A stretch of DNA of 64,000 nt from assembly GCA_018223435.1 (NCBI GenBank), contig JAGTTO010000001.1:310001-374000 (forward strand). The letters run 5' to 3'. This document shows, one piece after another, positions 987 to 64,000 of this stretch (position 1 is its first letter; every line of letters begins with the position of its first letter). The position numbers and the translations under genes were made by a program. The notes beneath the pieces are model-generated. The model ran no database searches. It saw nothing but the letters and a program-made list of their open reading frames with translations, and was not told where the DNA came from. Source of the stretch: Lachnospiraceae bacterium Marseille-Q4251 (GTDB lineage Bacteria; Bacillota; Clostridia; Lachnospirales; Lachnospiraceae).

Positions 987-2087
987 TTATTCTCTCACAT
1001 CTTCCGTTTCTATTAAACAATGCTCCTCCAGCACTATCTTCGTCGGAAAATCCACACACTCTTTAAGGATAACTTTCTGGTGATCTTCAACTGATGGCAG
1101 CCAGTCTGATACATCAAATGAAAGCTCCATATCAAAATCCAGAGAGTAAGTATCCTCCAACTCAACCACCGTCTGCCAGAGGTAACCTTGTTCCTCTTTA
1201 TCCCAGTAAGACTGATTTTCATCTGTAAAGTCATACCACACCTTAACTATACAGTTTACATTTACGGACACAGTGGCAATTCCACATTCAACATCAAGGA
1301 CAGAAACCTCGTACTGAATATCATCAATACTGACTACTTCCAGATCATCAATGCAGACAAATTCCTGTCTTTCTATTTCTATTTCTGCATTATCAACTAC
1401 TTCCTTCACCGCTTCGATAATTTCTTTTTCTGCCCCACCATTATCAAAAAACAATTTCAGATTTGCTGCCAGATCGTCTGTCATCGCCAGGAACTCCACA
1501 AAACTGTTTAAAGAATCATATACAATCAAGTTTTTCGGCTCTTTTGCCTTTTCTTTCACTGCTTCTCTGAAGCCCGTGTCATTTGAGATAACAACATATA
1601 ATTCCTCTTCAGACAGATTATCCATCTCCTGAATAATAGAAGCTACCGCTATTGCATCCTTGAATTCTTCCGGCTTCTTTGCTTCAAAAGGCAGCTTTTG
1701 CCCAAAATAATCCGCCATGATTGCTTCTACATTTATTCCATTGACCGATATTCTCCTACACTGACATTCCAAAAGCAATTTTTCAAATTCTTCCTTTGTT
1801 TTTTCTGCCCATTCTCCAGGATCCGGAACCTGAAGCAGTTCTTTGAAGCCTGAAATATTTTTAAATCCTGCCAGCTTTGGGTTTTTCACGGCACCGAGAA
1901 GTTCTTTTGAGGCTTTTTTCACATCCCTGACAATATGTTTCTTTACTTCCCCTTCAACTACAGAATTGATATGAAGTTCCAGTTCTTTGTTCTTTACCCT
2001 GCTCCTGATCGCAGAAAAAGCAGCATTCTGAAACGAATAATTTGCTCCGTCATATATGTTTGTGTCTATAAAAACTTTATAATGCAC
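987..2087 (-). CDS. PIN-domain protein (DUF4935-like), putative ribonuclease
   Basis: 366 residues. The N-terminus carries a PIN fold: first acidic residue in VFIDTNIYDG (D8), a central acidic helix in KDAIAVASII (about residue 145) and a third site in VISNDTGFREA (about residue 170), the usual metal-binding acidic set of PIN nucleases. The C-terminal 130 residues are acidic and look beta-rich (alternating EVSVLDVECGIATVSVNVNC), as in DUF4935 proteins. Members are predicted RNases; in vivo targets are mostly unknown. It is monocistronic with no antitoxin-like partner next to it, so a VapC-type toxin is unlikely. Domain confidence is high, cellular role unknown. Confidence 0.8.
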   Translation of the reverse strand: MHYKVFIDTNIYDGANYSFQNAAFSAIRSRVKNKELELHINSVVEGEVKKHIVRDVKKASKELLGAVKNPKLAGFKNISGFKELLQVPDPGEWAEKTKEEFEKLLLECQCRRISVNGINVEAIMADYFGQKLPFEAKKPEEFKDAIAVASIIQEMDNLSEEELYVVISNDTGFREAVKEKAKEPKNLIVYDSLNSFVEFLAMTDDLAANLKLFFDNGGAEKEIIEAVKEVVDNAEIEIERQEFVCIDDLEVVSIDDIQYEVSVLDVECGIATVSVNVNCIVKVWYDFTDENQSYWDKEEQGYLWQTVVELEDTYSLDFDMELSFDVSDWLPSVEDHQKVILKECVDFPTKIVLEEHCLIETEDVRE

Positions 2088-11293: not shown

Positions 11294-11332
11294 AAAAAAT
11301 AGAAGCCGTACGAACCTGTTTTCGTACTTCTT
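11294..11332 (-). terminator. intrinsic terminator of the glycine riboswitch
   Basis: On the minus strand AGAAGTACGAA pairs with TTCGTACGGCTTCT and is followed by ATTTTTT. It lies between aptamer and gene, so it is probably the expression platform. Confidence 0.75.
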
Positions 11333-11504
11333 CTGACTCTGTCCTTTTGCCTGAGAGATTCTGCACAGCAGCTGTGCATTGCACCTTCGGCACTCATTTT
11401 CTGAGATTCTCCAGAGACCACTCCGCTTTTAGTCTCTGTTCTCCTGAAAGAACGCCTGAGAGTGTTACTCCTTCGGCTGTACGGCTCTGCACATTTCCTA
11501 AAAG
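11333..11504 (-). promoter_or_regulatory. tandem glycine riboswitch
   Basis: Two consecutive aptamers are readable. Aptamer 1 has GCCGAAGGAGTAACACTCTC followed by AGGC and GAACAGAGAC, closed by TTTAG/CTAAA. Aptamer 2 has GTGCCGAAGGTGCAA and ATCTCTCAGGCAAAAGGAC. These are the conserved glycine aptamer cores. The gene behind it is an alanine/glycine symporter. Whether glycine turns expression on or off depends on pairing with the following terminator and cannot be read safely by eye. Confidence 0.92.
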
Positions 11505-23588: not shown

Positions 23589-23607
23589 GTCTGCGGTCAT
23601 TTTCTAT

Positions 23608-23682
23608 CGAACCCAATAGTCGCAACTGAACGGCGTGCGGTAGAAACGTCTGAACCTTCTTCACAGACCTATATCGGATAAC
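23608..23682 (-). promoter_or_regulatory. purine riboswitch, guanine-type, with weak P2/P3 tops
   Basis: On the minus strand: P1 CCGATA/TATTGG, J2/3 GTTTCTACC exactly as in purine aptamers, and J3/1 GACTAT. The C in GACTAT is the residue that pairs with guanine in xpt-type aptamers (U for adenine). L2 reads AAGAAGG and L3 CCGTTCA, close to the consensus AUAUGG and CCGUAAA. The closing pairs next to both loops are mismatched. With the terminator it should reduce importer expression when guanine is plentiful. Confidence 0.78.
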
Positions 23683-23694
23683 ACTACCATCTGA

Positions 23695-23723
23695 ATTTTA
23701 GCAACCTGAAACACATTTGTCAA
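23695..23723 (-). promoter_or_regulatory. promoter of the nucleoside importer operon
   Basis: TTGACA (23718-23723) and TAAAAT (23695-23700) on the minus strand, spacer 17, just upstream of the purine riboswitch. Confidence 0.8.
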
Positions 23724-58537: not shown

Positions 58538-60361
58538 TTAGTCGAGGATCTTCTGGGATTCCTCTTCAGTAAACTGCCGACGTACCAGCTGGTAATAATA
58601 ACCTTTCTGCTCCAGAAGCTCGAGATGTTTTCCCTGCTCGATGATCTTTCCGTCCTTCACCACAAGGATAAGGTCCGCATTGCGGATTGTGGAAAGACGA
58701 TGGGCGATCAGGAAAGAAGTTCTTCCTTTGAGAATCTTATCTGTAGCCTTCTGAATCAGCTGCTCGGTCTGGGTATCAATGGAGGAAGTGGCCTCATCCA
58801 GAACGAAAATTCTGGGGTCTGCCAGAACTGCTCTTGCAAAGGAGATCAGCTGTTTTTCTCCGGTTGAGAGCCGGTCGCCGCCCTCTCCCACATCACTCTG
58901 ATAGCCAAGATCCATCTTTTCCACCACCTGATCCGCATGAACGGCTTTCGCGGCCGCGATGACCTCCTCATCGGTGGCATCCAGTCGTCCGTAGCGGATA
59001 TTCTCCATGACGCTTCCCGAGAACAGGTGCGGATTCTGAAGCACATAGCCCAGACTGCTGTGGAGCCAGAGCTGGCTCCGCTCCCGGTAATCCTTTCCGT
59101 CGATGAGAATCTGGCCTCCTGTCGGCTCAAAGAAGCGGCAGGCCAGGTTTACCAGCGTACTTTTTCCGGCTCCGGTCTCGCCGACAATGGCCACATTGGT
59201 TCCTGCCGGAATCTTCAGATTAAAGTGGCTTAAGATTTCCTCCTTGCCGTCGGGATAATGGAAGCTCACATCGCGGAACTCGATATCGCCTTTGATGGGC
59301 TCCCAGTTTTCCTTTTTCGGGAAAAAGCTGTCTCCGTACTTCTCGATGACCTCCGGGGAATCCACCACCTGGGGCTCTTCGTCCAGAAGGCCGGTGACAC
59401 GCTCGATGTTGGCCTGGGCGGAAATGAACTCCGCCAGGTTCCTCGCCATCTGCTGAATCGGCTCGAAGATGCCCACTGCATAAGTCGTAAAGGCAGAGAG
59501 CGTACCGATCAGCATGACATTCTCAAAGACCTGAATGCCGCCTCTCGCGAGGACGATGGCCGTCGCCAGAGAGCCGCAGAAAAGCACCAGTGGCAGATAA
59601 ACGGCGTTGAGCCTTGCCGCCCGTACTGAGGCGCTTCTCATCTCCCCGGTGATCTCCTGAAATTCGCCGTAGGTTTTCTCCTCCACCACCAGAGATTTGG
59701 CAGTCTTGGCTCCCATGATACCCTCGTTGTAGGCACTGGTGATTTTTGAATTGATCTTACGCACCTGCCGGTTCCATTTGAGAATCCGGTTCTGGAAGTA
59801 AAAAGTCAGAAGGGCGATGGCAGGTACCACCAGCATGATGACCAGCGCCAGTTTCCAGTTCAGGAAAAGCATAGCCACAAAAACACCCAGCACATAGGTG
59901 AGAGCCCAGAGAAGATCCACGAAGTTCCAGGCGATGAGACCTGAGATCTTGCCGGTATCGTTCATGACTCTGGAAAGCATATAGCCCACGGGAGTCACAT
60001 TGTAATAGGAGAAGGACAAGGTCTGCAGGTGGACGAAAAGCGCCCGCTTCAGATCCTTTCCAAGGCCCATCTCGATCCGCATGCTGCCCCGGGTAAAAGC
60101 GATAACCGCCGCACCCTGAAGCGCGATGACCACAATATAAAGCACGGTAAAAAAGCCGATGCCCGTAAGTGTGTTTCCCTCAATAAAATGGTTGATGGCA
60201 TACCGCTGAAACAACGGAAGGATGATATCCACCAGGGAGCAGAACAGGTTCATAACCAGGATCATAATTACCGTTTTTTTGTAGGGTTTGAGAAACGGAA
60301 AGATCCGTTTCCAGATGGAGTAATCAAAGGATTTTGTGTATTCTTTTTCTTCCAGTCTCAT
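58538..60361 (-). CDS. heterodimeric ABC exporter, subunit with catalytic Glu
   Basis: 607 residues: six-helix membrane domain (about 20-310) and nucleotide-binding domain. Walker A GETGAGKSTLVNL, non-canonical signature RLSTGEKQLISFARAV, Walker B IFVLDEATSSIDTQTE with the catalytic Glu. The degenerate signature and the partner with Asp in Walker B are the two halves of one degenerate ATP site, as in BmrCD or TM287/288. It overlaps its partner by four bases (ATGA). Likely a drug or lipid exporter. Confidence 0.93.
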   Translation of the reverse strand: MRLEEKEYTKSFDYSIWKRIFPFLKPYKKTVIMILVMNLFCSLVDIILPLFQRYAINHFIEGNTLTGIGFFTVLYIVVIALQGAAVIAFTRGSMRIEMGLGKDLKRALFVHLQTLSFSYYNVTPVGYMLSRVMNDTGKISGLIAWNFVDLLWALTYVLGVFVAMLFLNWKLALVIMLVVPAIALLTFYFQNRILKWNRQVRKINSKITSAYNEGIMGAKTAKSLVVEEKTYGEFQEITGEMRSASVRAARLNAVYLPLVLFCGSLATAIVLARGGIQVFENVMLIGTLSAFTTYAVGIFEPIQQMARNLAEFISAQANIERVTGLLDEEPQVVDSPEVIEKYGDSFFPKKENWEPIKGDIEFRDVSFHYPDGKEEILSHFNLKIPAGTNVAIVGETGAGKSTLVNLACRFFEPTGGQILIDGKDYRERSQLWLHSSLGYVLQNPHLFSGSVMENIRYGRLDATDEEVIAAAKAVHADQVVEKMDLGYQSDVGEGGDRLSTGEKQLISFARAVLADPRIFVLDEATSSIDTQTEQLIQKATDKILKGRTSFLIAHRLSTIRNADLILVVKDGKIIEQGKHLELLEQKGYYYQLVRRQFTEEESQKILD

Positions 60362-62142
60362 GCCTTTTTCCCTCCTTCCATGACACGGATGTCGCTGTTC
60401 ATCTGAATCTCATAAATATCTTTGTAAATGCCTTCCTGTGAAATCAGCTCCTCATGGGTTCCAAGCTCACAGATCTTTCCTTTATCCATAACCAGAATGA
60501 GATCGGCCTGCTTTAACGAGTTGATCCGGTGGGAAATAAGAAGCACCGTGGCTTTCTCCATCTCCGCTTTCAGCGCGTGACGGATCTTCGCGTCGGTCTC
60601 CGCATCCACAGCGGAAAGGGAATCGTCGAAAACCAGAATCGGCGCTTTCATCATCAGAGTCCGGGCAATGGCCACACGCTGTTTCTGGCCGCCGGACAGA
60701 GTCACGCCCCGCTCTCCCACAATCGTGTTGTAGCCGTCTGTGAAATGCTCGATGGCCTCATCCACGCAGGCAATCTCTGCTGCATGGCGAATCCGCTCCT
60801 CATGGGGCGTTTCCTCTGTGATGGAGATATTTTCCCCGATGCTCCTGGAGAACAGGAAGGGCTCCTGAAGCACCATACCGATATGGGCTCTCAGATACTC
60901 TCTCTTAATATCCCGGATATCCACGCCTCCGATCGTGATCCTTCCGTTACCGGGCGGCAGATCATAGAGGCGGTTCAGAAGATGCATCAGCGTCGATTTT
61001 CCGCTGCCGGTGCTTCCCAGGATTCCAAAGGTGCTTCCCGCCGGAATTGTAAAACTCATATCCTCCAGAATCGGATGCTCTTCATCATAGGCGAAGGTTA
61101 CATGCTCAAAGCAGATATCTCCGTCAAGAGGCGGCTGAAGGGCTTTGCCCTCCTCTTTTTCCTCCTCCGCGTCGAGGATATAGGCCACACGCTCCACGGA
61201 AACTCCCGCCTTACTCATATCTGAGAGGATTCTTCCCAGACTTCGGATCGGCCAGGTCAGAGAGGAGTTGTAGGAAACAAAGGCCAGAAACTCGCCCAGC
61301 GTCAGCTCCTGATGAACAACCAGTACGGTTCCGGTAACTAAGACCGTCAGGATCTGAATGCCGGTGATAAAATCGCCGGTGGCCCAGTAGGCACTCATGA
61401 TTCCGCCGAGTTTGATCCAAAGCCCCGCGAATCGCTCGTTTCTCTCATCAAAACGGTCAATCTCAAATTTTTCTCTTCCGAAGGCCCGGACAACCCGGAC
61501 GCCTGTGAGGTTCTCCTGCACAGTGCTGGAGAGAGCTCCCTCCGCCTCATCGGCCTTCATGAACCGGTCTCCGATCTTGGAATAAAAGAAACCGGAATAA
61601 CCCACGATGACCGGGATAAAAGCAGCCGCCACCAGAGAGAGTTTCACGTTCATGGAAAACATGATTCCCAGGTACAGAACCATCAGGAAAACGATTCGGA
61701 ACACATCTGGCATCTGGTTGCAGACGAAGTTTCGGATCACCTCCACGTCTGAGGTACAGCGTTGGATGATCTCTCCGGTCTGATGACGCACATGCCAGGC
61801 GAAGGGCAGCTTCTCGATGTGGTGGAACAGGGTATCACGGATGTTCTTCATGAAATTCTCGGAACCCTTTGCCAGTGTCATCTTGCTGAAATAGTTGAAG
61901 ATTCCTGACAAAATCGCCGCCACAAGAACGGCCCCTGCCGCCAGAAACAAAAGATGTCTCCCGTAACTGTCTCCGACTCCTGTCAGAATATGATCCACGG
62001 CATAGCGGATGATCTGCGGGGTCAGGGCATTACAGGCTGTGAAAAGCACGGAAAACACGAGGCTCAGCACAAACAGATAGAAGCTGCCTTTCAGAAATCG
62101 AAAGATCACCTGAAATTTTCCCGGCTTTTTCTCAGTATTCAT
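60358..62142 (-). CDS. heterodimeric ABC exporter, subunit with degenerate Walker B
   Basis: 594 residues from the ATG at 62142 (AAAGGAGG upstream), chosen over an upstream frame that has no ribosome site. Walker A GSTGSGKSTLMHL, canonical signature TLSGGQKQRVAIARTL, Walker B ILVFDDSLSAVDAETD in which Asp replaces the catalytic Glu. Membrane domain at about 15-315. It is BmrC-like in this respect. First gene of the exporter operon, behind a leader ORF and a terminator (62214-62535). Confidence 0.93.
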   Translation of the reverse strand: MNTEKKPGKFQVIFRFLKGSFYLFVLSLVFSVLFTACNALTPQIIRYAVDHILTGVGDSYGRHLLFLAAGAVLVAAILSGIFNYFSKMTLAKGSENFMKNIRDTLFHHIEKLPFAWHVRHQTGEIIQRCTSDVEVIRNFVCNQMPDVFRIVFLMVLYLGIMFSMNVKLSLVAAAFIPVIVGYSGFFYSKIGDRFMKADEAEGALSSTVQENLTGVRVVRAFGREKFEIDRFDERNERFAGLWIKLGGIMSAYWATGDFITGIQILTVLVTGTVLVVHQELTLGEFLAFVSYNSSLTWPIRSLGRILSDMSKAGVSVERVAYILDAEEEKEEGKALQPPLDGDICFEHVTFAYDEEHPILEDMSFTIPAGSTFGILGSTGSGKSTLMHLLNRLYDLPPGNGRITIGGVDIRDIKREYLRAHIGMVLQEPFLFSRSIGENISITEETPHEERIRHAAEIACVDEAIEHFTDGYNTIVGERGVTLSGGQKQRVAIARTLMMKAPILVFDDSLSAVDAETDAKIRHALKAEMEKATVLLISHRINSLKQADLILVMDKGKICELGTHEELISQEGIYKDIYEIQMNSDIRVMEGGKKA

Positions 62143-62213
62143 ATCACACTTCCTCCTTTTCTCTTTCTTTTTTGATTTTCCGACTGCAATATTTTTGACA
62201 TGCGTATGCACAT

Positions 62214-62236
62214 AGAATCCTGCTTTGCAGGATTCT
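62214..62236 (-). promoter_or_regulatory. perfect hairpin in the exporter leader
   Basis: AGAATCCTGC and GCAGGATTCT pair fully around AAA. There is no T-run, so it is not a simple terminator; it may protect mRNA or take part in leader folding. Confidence 0.5.
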
Positions 62237-62306
62237 CCGCCGCAGTGCGATCCTGCCCGGAGGGCTTTTTGTGCGACAGGTAATTACAACGGAATTTCCT
62301 GTTACA

Positions 62307-62338
62307 CAAAAAAGGCACCCCCGAAAGTTCAGGGATGC
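62307..62338 (-). terminator. intrinsic terminator between leader ORF and ABC exporter
   Basis: GCATCCC and GGGGGTGC pair (62315-62338), followed by CTTTTTTG on the minus strand. It lies 30 bases after the leader ORF stop and about 165 bases before the exporter start. Confidence 0.75.
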
Positions 62339-62367
62339 TCTTTGCACTGCTTATTTTGTACGCAATG

Positions 62368-62472
62368 TCATACGAACGCCGAAAAAGAAAGCGGCAGTCG
62401 GAAAATCCTTGAATCCAAGTTGTTGTTACTCGTGATGCTGTTGTTGTAAATCTTTGTAAAGTAATTTCTCAT
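62368..62472 (-). CDS. 34-residue leader peptide candidate upstream of the ABC exporter
   Basis: The ATG at 62472 has a perfect AAGGAGG site, and a consensus promoter lies 35 bases upstream. The peptide starts MRNYFTKIYNNSITSNNNLD, with six Asn in residues 10-18, and ends LSFSAFV. A second reading frame stays open across its stop for about 20 codons (FPTAAFFFGVRM). A terminator follows, then the exporter genes. The layout matches a translated attenuator such as bmrB before bmrCD. A stand-alone small protein remains possible. Confidence 0.6.
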   Translation of the reverse strand: MRNYFTKIYNNSITSNNNLDSRIFRLPLSFSAFV

Positions 62473-62506
62473 GGTACTGCCTCCTTTCTTTTTTATTCTG
62501 TTATTC

Positions 62507-62535
62507 AGTATATGGGCAATTACTTTGTCTGTCAA
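62507..62535 (-). promoter_or_regulatory. promoter of the leader ORF and exporter
   Basis: TTGACA (62530-62535) and TATACT (62507-62512) on the minus strand, spacer 17. Confidence 0.82.
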
Positions 62536-62556
62536 GCTATTTTTCAGACAAATTTT

Positions 62557-64000
62557 CTACTCTTCTGATATTACATAGCCGGCCAGGTTATAAGCATGGT
62601 CAGAAATACGCTCCAGATTGCTGATGATATCCAGGAAGACCACACCGTTGGTGGGCTTGCAGAGCTGCTTGGACAGACGCTCGATGTGCTGTTCACGAAG
62701 CTCCTCTTCCATGTTATCAACCATATCTTCGTATTTTACTACTTTCTTCGCATCCGAGATATCGGAATGTTCTCTGGCTGACATCGCATAGGCGAAGGAG
62801 TTGGTTACGAGACCCATGATGGATTTGAGATCCTGCAGAGCCTGCTCGGAAAATTCGATCTTATCGACTCCCTCTTTTACATCCACCAGCTCGGCGATAT
62901 TTTCCACATGGTCGCCCACTCGCTCGATGTCGCTGACAGAGTAGAACAGGTTGCTGACCACCACATGCTGATCCTCGGTGAGAGGAAGATTGCTGAGCTT
63001 GACGAGATACTCGGTGATGAGTTTTTCCATATTGTTGATGGTTTTCTCCACCTCATAGACCTTGTCGATCTTCTCTTTATCATATGAGAGTGCAGCCTCA
63101 AAAGCCCGGTCCATATTTTCTCGGGTGATCCGTCCCATATGGGCAACCTCATGAATGGCATTCTCGATTGCGAAGGCCGGCTCCTTGAAGATACGGGAAT
63201 CCAGATGCTGCAGAGTAACGGTCTCCTCGTCCTTCTCTTCTTTCTCCTTCTCTGGCTCGTCCTTGATGAAGAAACCGGAAAGCTTTACCAGATAATCGGC
63301 AAAGGGGAACATGAGGATTGTCAGCACCACCTTAAATCCGGTGTGGAAGGTAGCGATACCGGCACTGTTGATGCCGTGGGATGCAACCTCCGGGAACATC
63401 TTAAACAGGATTGTGAAGATCACGGAAAAGACTGTTACACCGATGACGTTGAACAAAAGGTGAATCATAGCTGCTCTCTTCGCCGTACGGTTGGTACCGA
63501 TACTGGAAAGAAGGGCTGTGGAACAGGAACCGATATCAGAACCAAAACTGATAAATACGGCTGCACTGATGCCGACCGCTCCGCTTGATGCAGCCAGGGT
63601 CTGAAGAATACCAACTGCTGCAGAGGAGCTCTGCATGATAACGGTTACGATAAAACCAAGGCCGATACCCAGAAGCGGGTTCGCACCAAAGAGGGCAAAC
63701 AGATCCTTGAAGGCCGGAAGCGTCGTGTAGGATTTGGCCGCATCTCCCATGAAATCCAGACCGATAAACAGAAGTCCAAGACCGATGCAGATCTCACCGA
63801 TGGTCTGCTTTCTTTCCTTCTTGGAAAACATGATAAGAAAAGAACCGATAGCCACGATCAGGGGCGCATACAGGGACGGGGACAGGGTTTTAAAAGTGTC
63901 TCCCAGCTGGCCTAAGGATACGATCCAGGCGGTGATACAGGTACCGATGTTGGCTCCCATGATGGGACCGACTGCCTGGCTTAAGTTCATGAGACCGGCA
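62557..64000 (-). CDS. Na/Pi cotransporter with PhoU-like domain, N-terminus outside window
   Basis: About 480 residues are visible and the frame is open to the right edge (AGLMNLSQAVGPIMG). Membrane part to about residue 240 holds the repeated Na/Pi motif (GPIMGANIGTCITAWIVSLG and VIMQSSSAAVGILQTLA), with QSSS as the substrate site. The C-terminal 200 residues are PhoU-like helices (YSVSDIERVGDHVENIAELV and SNLERISDHAYNLAGYV, ExxD metal motifs). It should take up phosphate with sodium, or regulate phosphate uptake, in the NptA/YjbB family. Confidence 0.93.
   Translation of the reverse strand, partial: AGLMNLSQAVGPIMGANIGTCITAWIVSLGQLGDTFKTLSPSLYAPLIVAIGSFLIMFSKKERKQTIGEICIGLGLLFIGLDFMGDAAKSYTTLPAFKDLFALFGANPLLGIGLGFIVTVIMQSSSAAVGILQTLAASSGAVGISAAVFISFGSDIGSCSTALLSSIGTNRTAKRAAMIHLLFNVIGVTVFSVIFTILFKMFPEVASHGINSAGIATFHTGFKVVLTILMFPFADYLVKLSGFFIKDEPEKEKEEKDEETVTLQHLDSRIFKEPAFAIENAIHEVAHMGRITRENMDRAFEAALSYDKEKIDKVYEVEKTINNMEKLITEYLVKLSNLPLTEDQHVVVSNLFYSVSDIERVGDHVENIAELVDVKEGVDKIEFSEQALQDLKSIMGLVTNSFAYAMSAREHSDISDAKKVVKYEDMVDNMEEELREQHIERLSKQLCKPTNGVVFLDIISNLERISDHAYNLAGYVISEE

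Follow-up and report, generated by a model that had tools for sequence, protein, structure and literature searches.

A candidate ribosome-sensing transcription attenuator built on competing RNA helices before a putative heterodimeric ABC exporter of gut Clostridia

Results

The DNA considered here (64,000 nucleotides from Lachnospiraceae bacterium Marseille-Q4251, referred to as the window) contains two adjacent ABC half-exporter genes on the minus strand, following a leader as an earlier note on this DNA had described. Half-transporter A (60358..62142) starts with an ATG at 62142 behind a Shine-Dalgarno sequence (SD) at 62159-62152 and has FDD in its Walker B motif; half-transporter B (58538..60361) has the canonical LDE. 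In a heterodimeric exporter with one degenerate site one altered Walker B is expected, and we take the FDD of half-transporter A to be that site. Both subunits match the chains of TmrAB and of BmrC/BmrD in a PDB sequence search, where the TmrAB chains score slightly above those of BmrC/BmrD. With its adjacent halves and one degenerate Walker B, the pair can be classed from sequence as a putative heterodimeric ABC exporter of the BmrCD/TmrAB kind. Models of Na/Pi cotransporters and of PhoU match the gene upstream of the leader; this gene ends at 62557, which places the leader promoter between it and the leader.

The leader, on the same strand, opens with a sigma-70-type promoter (62507..62535, TTGACA-17-TATACT, 11/12 consensus matches). 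Judged by count this promoter is weak, as 2 promoter-like sites are found in the 1.1-kb region and 1.8 are expected in shuffles, while by match and position it is a good candidate. The SD region follows (62476..62492, with AAGGAGG at 62486-62480), and then an ORF of 34 codons from ATG to TGA (62368..62472) that encodes MRNYFTKIYNNSITSNNNLDSRIFRLPLSFSAFV; its translation is a prediction from the ATG and the 7/7 match of the SD. An intrinsic terminator (62308..62338), made of a hairpin at 62338-62315 and a T run, begins 29 nt past the stop codon of the ORF. Further down is a perfect 10-bp hairpin with a loop of 3 (62214..62236, arms 62236-62227/62223-62214). The earlier note had described all of these elements, with the terminator some 30 bases past the stop, and each of them is found on the minus strand. 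Between the terminator and the perfect hairpin there is another hairpin (62266..62312), with 20-nt arms that are 85% complementary, overlapping the terminator T run. In total about 165 nt with more hairpins separate the terminator from the exporter genes. A separate promoter in this stretch that carried all expression would tell against the attenuator idea of that note; consensus matching, the only method used for this, finds nothing promoter-like on the minus strand that reaches the scan threshold.

The 371-nt leader has a fold with a z of -5.9, and 0/100 shuffles are equally stable. No Rfam family reaches its gathering score at the window leader, and a search in E-value mode over 62130-62560 returns 5 matches, all far under the gathering scores. 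Elsewhere in the window, on the minus strand, there are a Glycine riboswitch aptamer (11329-11424, 65.8 bits) and a Purine riboswitch aptamer (23597-23696, 44.6 bits). Among 17 relatives searched with Rfam, a T-box leader appears in locus L002 only (1604-1816, minus strand, 105.9 bits), and it is not at the exporter leader.

We turn to the relatives of exporter A. A search of genome contigs with exporter A gives six loci, two of which are orthologues. The same protein was sought in 299 genomes of the family of G001 (E 1e-170 reached in 32), in 397 genomes of the family of G181, a set that overlaps the first (22 at 1e-205), and in 300 genomes of the family of G002, Oscillospiraceae (28 at 1e-200). 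The search also took in 3 genomes from the genus of G095 and a single genome from each of those of G181 and G252. Exporters of 84-89% identity (P0003, P0004) are of metagenomic origin. For 65 orthologues one script inspected the upstream DNA, to at most 600 bases, and 63 were evaluable. The layout is defined as an SD-led ORF of 20-44 codons that begins with ATG, a duplex of the SD with the end of the ORF at or below -17 kcal/mol, and a terminator after it. Loci L015 and L055, whose upstream DNA is cut off, are not counted, nor are L001 and L008 (duplicates of L007 and L002) or L003-L006, L009 and L010 (unrelated or paralogues); the weaker orthologues of G269 and G251 were given no locus.

The layout precedes 23 of the 63 evaluable orthologues, in two families, which makes 24 leaders with the window. 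It is found before 20/24 of the orthologues with at least 57% identity and before 3/39 of those below, a line that was drawn after the table had been seen; L007, L019, L044 and L047 lack it at or above this identity. The conservation of ORF and terminator among relatives, which the earlier note had asked for, is thus present as a layout, but the peptide is largely different.

A quick tree was made of 68 rows. In it every one of the 24 leader rows belongs to a single clade of 31 (SH-aLRT 98), which also holds 5 leaderless rows and 2 of unassigned state. The leader label needs 3 changes on this tree versus 19.7 in shuffles. The 3 changes correspond to a gain in each family and a loss in L007; had the leader been gained once, four losses would be required. 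The layout may accordingly stem from two origins or from transfer as well as from a common origin. Whether by one origin, two, or transfer, it is the same layout before the same exporter. The leaderless L007 (G001, 71% identity) is the sister of the window in the tree; its exporter A is directly preceded by another gene and a hairpin. In L047 (G474) a promoter-like sequence and a terminator can be seen by eye some 50-160 bases before exporter A, with no SD-led short ORF; a covariance model of the leaders (R1, described below) scores 15.1 bits there (E 0.27), and the locus is possibly a decayed or a different variant.

A feature that the earlier note had not described is the complementarity between the end of the ORF and its own SD. 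We name the parts in their order along the RNA: segment 1 is the SD region (62476..62492), segment 2a lies within the ORF (62401..62412), segment 2b is the anti-SD in the final codons of the ORF (62382..62398), and segment 3 is the 5' arm of the terminator with two further bases (62329..62340). In the window, AAAAGAAAGGAGGCAGT (62492-62476) stands opposite ACTGCCGCTTTCTTTTT (62398-62382), with 76% complementarity over 17 nt. In the relatives the two partners change jointly: GGAGGCAGGCAAAATG/CATTTTGCCTGCC in L012, GGAGGCGGACAGTATG/CATACTGTCTGCC in L014, GGTGCGCAAA/TTTGCGCGCC in L002 and GGCGTACAGG/CCTGTATGCC in L050. The permutation and shuffle tests use 22 leaders, the near-copies L041 and L042 being left out. 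The contiguous helices of 1:2 stand out against dinucleotide shuffles (Fisher p 4e-21), and an anti-SD pairs better with the SD of its own leader than with those of other species (p 1e-5). In 22/22 leaders the best anti-SD, sought from codon 9 of the ORF onward, has its end 2-28 nt ahead of the last base of the stop codon.

Alignments point the same way. In an alignment of nine Oscillospiraceae-side leaders (A3), the helices of 1:2 and of the terminator are paired in 95.8% of cells, and slid versions give 30-66%; changes on both sides occur in 8/16 pairs, the structure having been chosen from the same sequences. Four of five measures are reached by 0/500 shuffles and the fifth by 4. From an alignment of 12 leaders (A2), RNAalifold returns the 1:2 helix as its sole structure, with double changes in 4/6 pairs. 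The window taken alone is modest evidence: its contiguous helix has p 0.075, and an SD-to-end duplex at or below -20 kcal/mol is found in 5/26 of the SD-led short ORFs of the window, the leader included. The case therefore rests on the family of leaders, over which 1:2 qualifies as a predicted anti-antiterminator that overlaps the candidate antiterminator.

The covariance model R1 was made from A3, with the window left out, and run over the window and 36 loci (37/79 sources). Its sole match in the window at E up to 5 is the leader (62491-62307, 20.1 bits, E 0.023). Among leaders outside the model, L057, L002, L012, L049, L050, L054, L011 and L014 are matched at E up to 0.003 and L041, L043, L042 and L022 at E 0.6-0.9 only; L013 and L040 (which by eye differ by 6 nt in leader length, with the frame kept) are not found. 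The leaderless L047 (0.27) and L070 (0.56) score on a par with the weak leaders. At E 0.05, R1 gives 25 matches in 23 of 300 Oscillospiraceae-side genomes: the 9 seeds, 4 further exporter leaders (G462, G002, G536, G596) and 12 matches elsewhere, the best of which (G450, L090, E 5.6e-6) overlaps, by eye, the start of a long gene. Above 43 bits only exporter leaders are found, and the model is too narrow to confine the layout to exporters. One match at 32 bits (L091 of G473, 1501-1640) lies directly before a gene that by eye resembles an O-acetylhomoserine sulfhydrylase, and may be chance or another attenuator. A pattern for the Lachnospiraceae-side leaders hits 5/397 genomes, one of them with the known G069 leader, and its reversed control 2; it is a narrow pattern that misses the other known leaders of those genomes.

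The next question is whether the leader has an antiterminator. The earlier note had seen none by eye. We can now propose a candidate, 2:3, in which the RNA directly 5' of the anti-SD pairs with the 5' arm of the terminator, although it is weak in the window itself. There, TCA-A-GGAT-T-TTC (62412-62401) would meet GAG-C-ATCC-C-TGA (62340-62329) with 3+4+3 pairs and two mismatches, among the weakest of the leaders, and five pairs in a row do not occur in 2a:3 (p 0.80). Uninterrupted pairs number 12 in L014, 9 in L053 and 8 in L048. Following the order 1, 2a, 2b, 3 along the RNA, 1:2b and 2a:3 cross and are mutually exclusive in a nested fold.

Own-species pairing of 2:3 exceeds cross-species pairing over the 22 leaders (p 2e-5). 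This signal stems from the 14 leaders of the Oscillospiraceae side (p 4e-5); on the Lachnospiraceae side, where the window is one of 8 leaders, p is 0.12. A cruder test made at first gave p 0.013, and the contiguous-helix shuffles reach a Fisher p of 0.006 only, far weaker than for 1:2. When segment 2 is defined from the anti-SD, the whole segment has p 2e-5, 2a alone 0.026 and 2b alone 0.0009. With a second anti-SD definition, seven windows for 2a give p 0.26, 0.79, 0.003, 0.001, 2e-5, 1e-5 and 2e-5, the first two of them lying farther upstream and having no own-species advantage. The 3' arm of the terminator, taken as a control, gives p 0.02 and 0.025 under the first definition and 0.18 and 0.0099 under the second; these controls are not wholly flat, and the 2:3 signal may therefore be partly compositional. 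The antiterminator is thus a candidate, species-specific over all leaders and not significant in the kin of the window. Two other kinds of pairing were tried and rejected: the SD with the 5' arm of the terminator (1:3) as an antiterminator (own versus cross-species p 0.19), and pairings of the ORF middle, the gap and the post-terminator RNA (p 0.20-0.99).

Given this imbalance, one may ask whether 1:2 alone accounts for the leader, limiting its translation to the first ribosome before a terminator that is constitutive and leaky, with no antitermination. The support for 1:2 does far exceed that for 2:3, which lacks significance in the kin of the window, and a terminator recurs across leaders. 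Such translational feedback, however, leaves the species-specific 2:3 complementarity over all leaders without a role, and gives no evident purpose to a terminator that recurs behind a recurrent leader ORF. We regard it as unlikely, if the most serious of the alternatives, and keep to the reading in which 2:3 would act as an antiterminator in competition with 1:2.

This competition can be modeled by folding transcripts that end in the terminator loop under ribosome-sized masks. Averaged over the 24 leaders, the share of the terminator 5' arm that is paired with segment 2 is 0.08 in naked RNA, 0.49 with a ribosome on the SD, 0.50 with a mask from the SD to nt +27, 0.00 with a ribosome over segment 2 and 0.08 with one at the stop. 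The window follows this behavior (naked 0.00, ribosome on the SD 0.65, at the stop 0.00). With the SD covered, 17/24 leaders reach 0.4, and L011, L013, L022, L040, L041, L042 and L056 stay below; L051 and L060 already show antitermination as naked RNA. When terminators are swapped between species the mean falls from 0.52 (own) to 0.34 (p 3e-5, 22 leaders), with 46% of the swapped leaders still reaching 0.4.

Moving a single ribosome along the window leader gives an antitermination share of 0.65 with its P site at codon 1, 0.64 at codon 2, 0.20 at codon 3 and 0.00 at codons 4-28. With a second ribosome placed on the start, the share is 0.63-0.70 while the leading ribosome stands at codons 11-16, 0.33 at codon 17, 0.01 at codon 18 (the last Asn), 0.18-0.43 at codons 28-32 and 0.66 at codons 33-34. 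Antitermination is accordingly a prediction of the folding model for a ribosome on the start and not for a lone one in the Asn run. The 0.66 at codons 33-34 implies that frequent re-initiation in normal translation would also antiterminate, so that the off state needs rare initiation, with 1:2 shutting the start after the first ribosome has passed.

These results bear on the Asn-rich peptide, by which the earlier note had explained the leader. It had counted six Asn in nine codons and supposed that slowing of the ribosome there allows read-through. Codons 10-18 hold five, the sixth being codon 3, and a lone ribosome on codons 10-18, the fold that the note had suggested making, leaves the off fold intact, the share staying at 0.00 throughout codons 4-18. 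Taken together, the single- and two-ribosome results make the Asn run alone a poor stalling place. Counted over the richest nine codons, the window has 5 Asn and L012 has 4; each of the remaining 22 leaders has 0-3, and 8/24 leader peptides lack Asn altogether. The Asn codons as a sensor are rejected on both counts: few leaders are Asn-rich, and a ribosome on the run gives no antitermination in folding. With 47% A and 9% G, the run looks like an A-rich, G-poor unstructured loop or spacer; the G-poor loop has 4-20% G in Lachnospiraceae-side leaders versus 15-35% in the others. An amino-acid-rich leader peptide need not be a sensor, and the Asn run of the window is a warning example.

A more general alternative is that a specific nascent chain, made by the Asn-rich run or by the C-terminal codons, stalls ribosomes as in erm-type leaders. 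A translatable leader with a biased peptide would suit this arrest-peptide scheme, for which bmrB-bmrCD, as reported in PMC4191407, is a precedent, and there are recurring residues to consider, [FIVL][CR][LA]P in 8/24 peptides and ILRA in 3/24. These always stand at the anti-SD codons, where the bases that encode them are complementary to the SD, so that RNA pairing can explain them. Otherwise the peptides differ widely across relatives, for example MKNTSKLYAASAAGLLSNRIAFKKLEIQRTFCLPV, MTRTINITITNRTISHINPIRELDGRVICAPHGLFNC and MASAVSCSKFSFPGAAGPVCL, and no motif is common to all 24. That of L012 (MRNFRFIKTLLNERIAINNKLNNQRTFCLPFQ) is window-like at both ends, with 6 Asn, 4 of them in nine codons; QRTFCLP is shared by L011 and L012, and the peptides of L014 and L043 have similar beginnings. 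Most leaders lack an Asn run, and the RLR arrest motif, as described for hflXr in PMC6310831, is seen by eye in 1/24 peptides (L052) and is absent from the window. In the folding, moreover, a leading ribosome at Asn 18 prevents the antiterminator, also when another ribosome is queued behind it. An arrest peptide is on this evidence quite improbable, even if the peptide may have some role in these leaders, and we continue with occupancy of the start as the event that would be sensed.

The window has one further feature of its own. At 62174..62187, some 15 bases ahead of the SD of the exporter, there is a 14-nt perfect complement of 62407-62394 in segment 2, and the two arms (62407-62394/62187-62174) enclose nested shorter helices. 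This pairing might free the leader start again once the polymerase has read through, or the sequence may be a recent inverted repeat. The repeat might even be the main feature of the leader, as the remnant of a mobile element or by influencing, once read-through has occurred, how the exporter is translated or how stable the RNA is, considering that its complementarity is perfect over 14 nt and that the minimum-energy fold has many helices (z -5.9). But the pairing of segment 2 with post-terminator RNA has no general counterpart in the relatives (p 0.90), and the recurrent 1:2 helix and the SD lie partly outside the repeat. We consider such an account very unlikely beside competing leader helices. 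The arm is found exactly at only two places in the window and with two mismatches at four further ones, versus 0.93 expected in all, and a mobile element is rejected on this count.

Discussion

Combining the anatomy of the leader, its recurrence in two families, the covariation of 1:2 and the species-specific complementarity of 2:3 over all leaders, all read from the sequences, we favor reading the exporter's 5' leader as a transcription attenuator that senses ribosomes through RNA helices that exclude one another. The probability that we assign to this reading is roughly 60%, lowered by the split of the 2:3 signal between the families and by the result of the two-ribosome folding. Of the attenuator proposed in the earlier note, the ribosome-dependent part is retained, on the basis of anatomy and recurrence, and the part specific to Asn is given up.

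The mechanism that we propose is as follows. In the off state, the nascent RNA would pair the leader SD and start (segment 1) with the final codons of the ORF (2b). This anti-antiterminator would occupy segment 2, the terminator (3:4) would form, and the polymerase would stop before the exporter. A lone, freely translating ribosome would cover segment 2 and likewise leave the terminator free. The on state would be triggered by a ribosome held at the start or the first codons, or by a queue behind a stalled ribosome that occupies the start; with 1:2 blocked, segment 2 would pair with the 5' arm of the terminator (2:3) and transcription would read through into the exporter. In the cell, then, both helices would have to form as drawn, and ribosome-targeting drugs would presumably induce the exporter to the benefit of the bacterium. 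The signal would be occupancy of the start, whatever the peptide or its amino acids, so induction is to be expected from translation inhibitors of several kinds.

A wider proposal, which we put forward tentatively and at somewhat less than even odds, is that these leaders are largely peptide-independent sensors of start occupancy in gut Clostridia of two families, in each of which the final codons of the ORF would mask its start. If true, the sensor would respond to a block of initiation or early elongation of any cause, and the ORF would be kept mainly as a stretch of translatable RNA. The attenuator proposed above would provide a concrete, testable mechanism for the induction of an efflux pump by ribosome-targeting drugs in uncultured gut Clostridia. 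The layout itself (an SD paired with the end of its own ORF, an antiterminator and a terminator) offers a search target that does not depend on a conserved peptide.

How does this leader compare with known systems? Among the matches listed in our literature search, which had subscription journals and preprints outside its scope, no title names it. The patAB attenuator of Streptococcus pneumoniae, as described in PMC4319486, is induced by fluoroquinolones or DNA damage, and the terms 'leader peptide' and 'open reading frame' are absent from the main text of that report. For tlrB, the account in PMC6851288 notes for one species that the leader SD lies in a weak hairpin. The bmrB-bmrCD system (as presented in PMC4191407) has in common with our locus a translated leader, ribosome-mediated attenuation and a heterodimeric ABC exporter, all of which are predicted here from sequence, and an anti-anti-terminator has been predicted for bmrB as well. 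According to the same report the bmrB terminator is inside the bmrB coding sequence, whereas the terminator of the window lies 29 nt past the stop and not within the leader ORF.

Two further systems resemble the leader in their helices. In hflXr (rli80) of Listeria, following the description in PMC6310831, a short ORF spans the anti-anti-terminator, and an anti-terminator and a terminator are present; that ORF, however, makes a 14-aa peptide with an RLR motif, and the product under control is a ribosome-splitting factor, not an exporter. In vmlR of Bacillus subtilis, as PMC9226507 describes it, stalling on a uORF prevents the anti-antiterminator, and uORF variants from other Bacilli were tested. 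Like our leaders, vmlR combines a uORF, an anti-antiterminator, an antiterminator and an intrinsic terminator. The vmlR uORF, by that account, is a tripeptide in the bulge of the first stem-loop, with a predicted SD described as single-stranded before the stem, whereas in leaders of the window type the anti-antiterminator would be made by the SD itself and the final codons of an ORF of 20-44 codons; the target of vmlR is an ABC-F protein, and here it is a putative heterodimeric exporter. A vmlR-like way of working seems likelier than membership of any named family, and the leader apparently adds a variant to the known class of anti-antiterminator, antiterminator and terminator systems to which vmlR, hflXr and bmrB belong.
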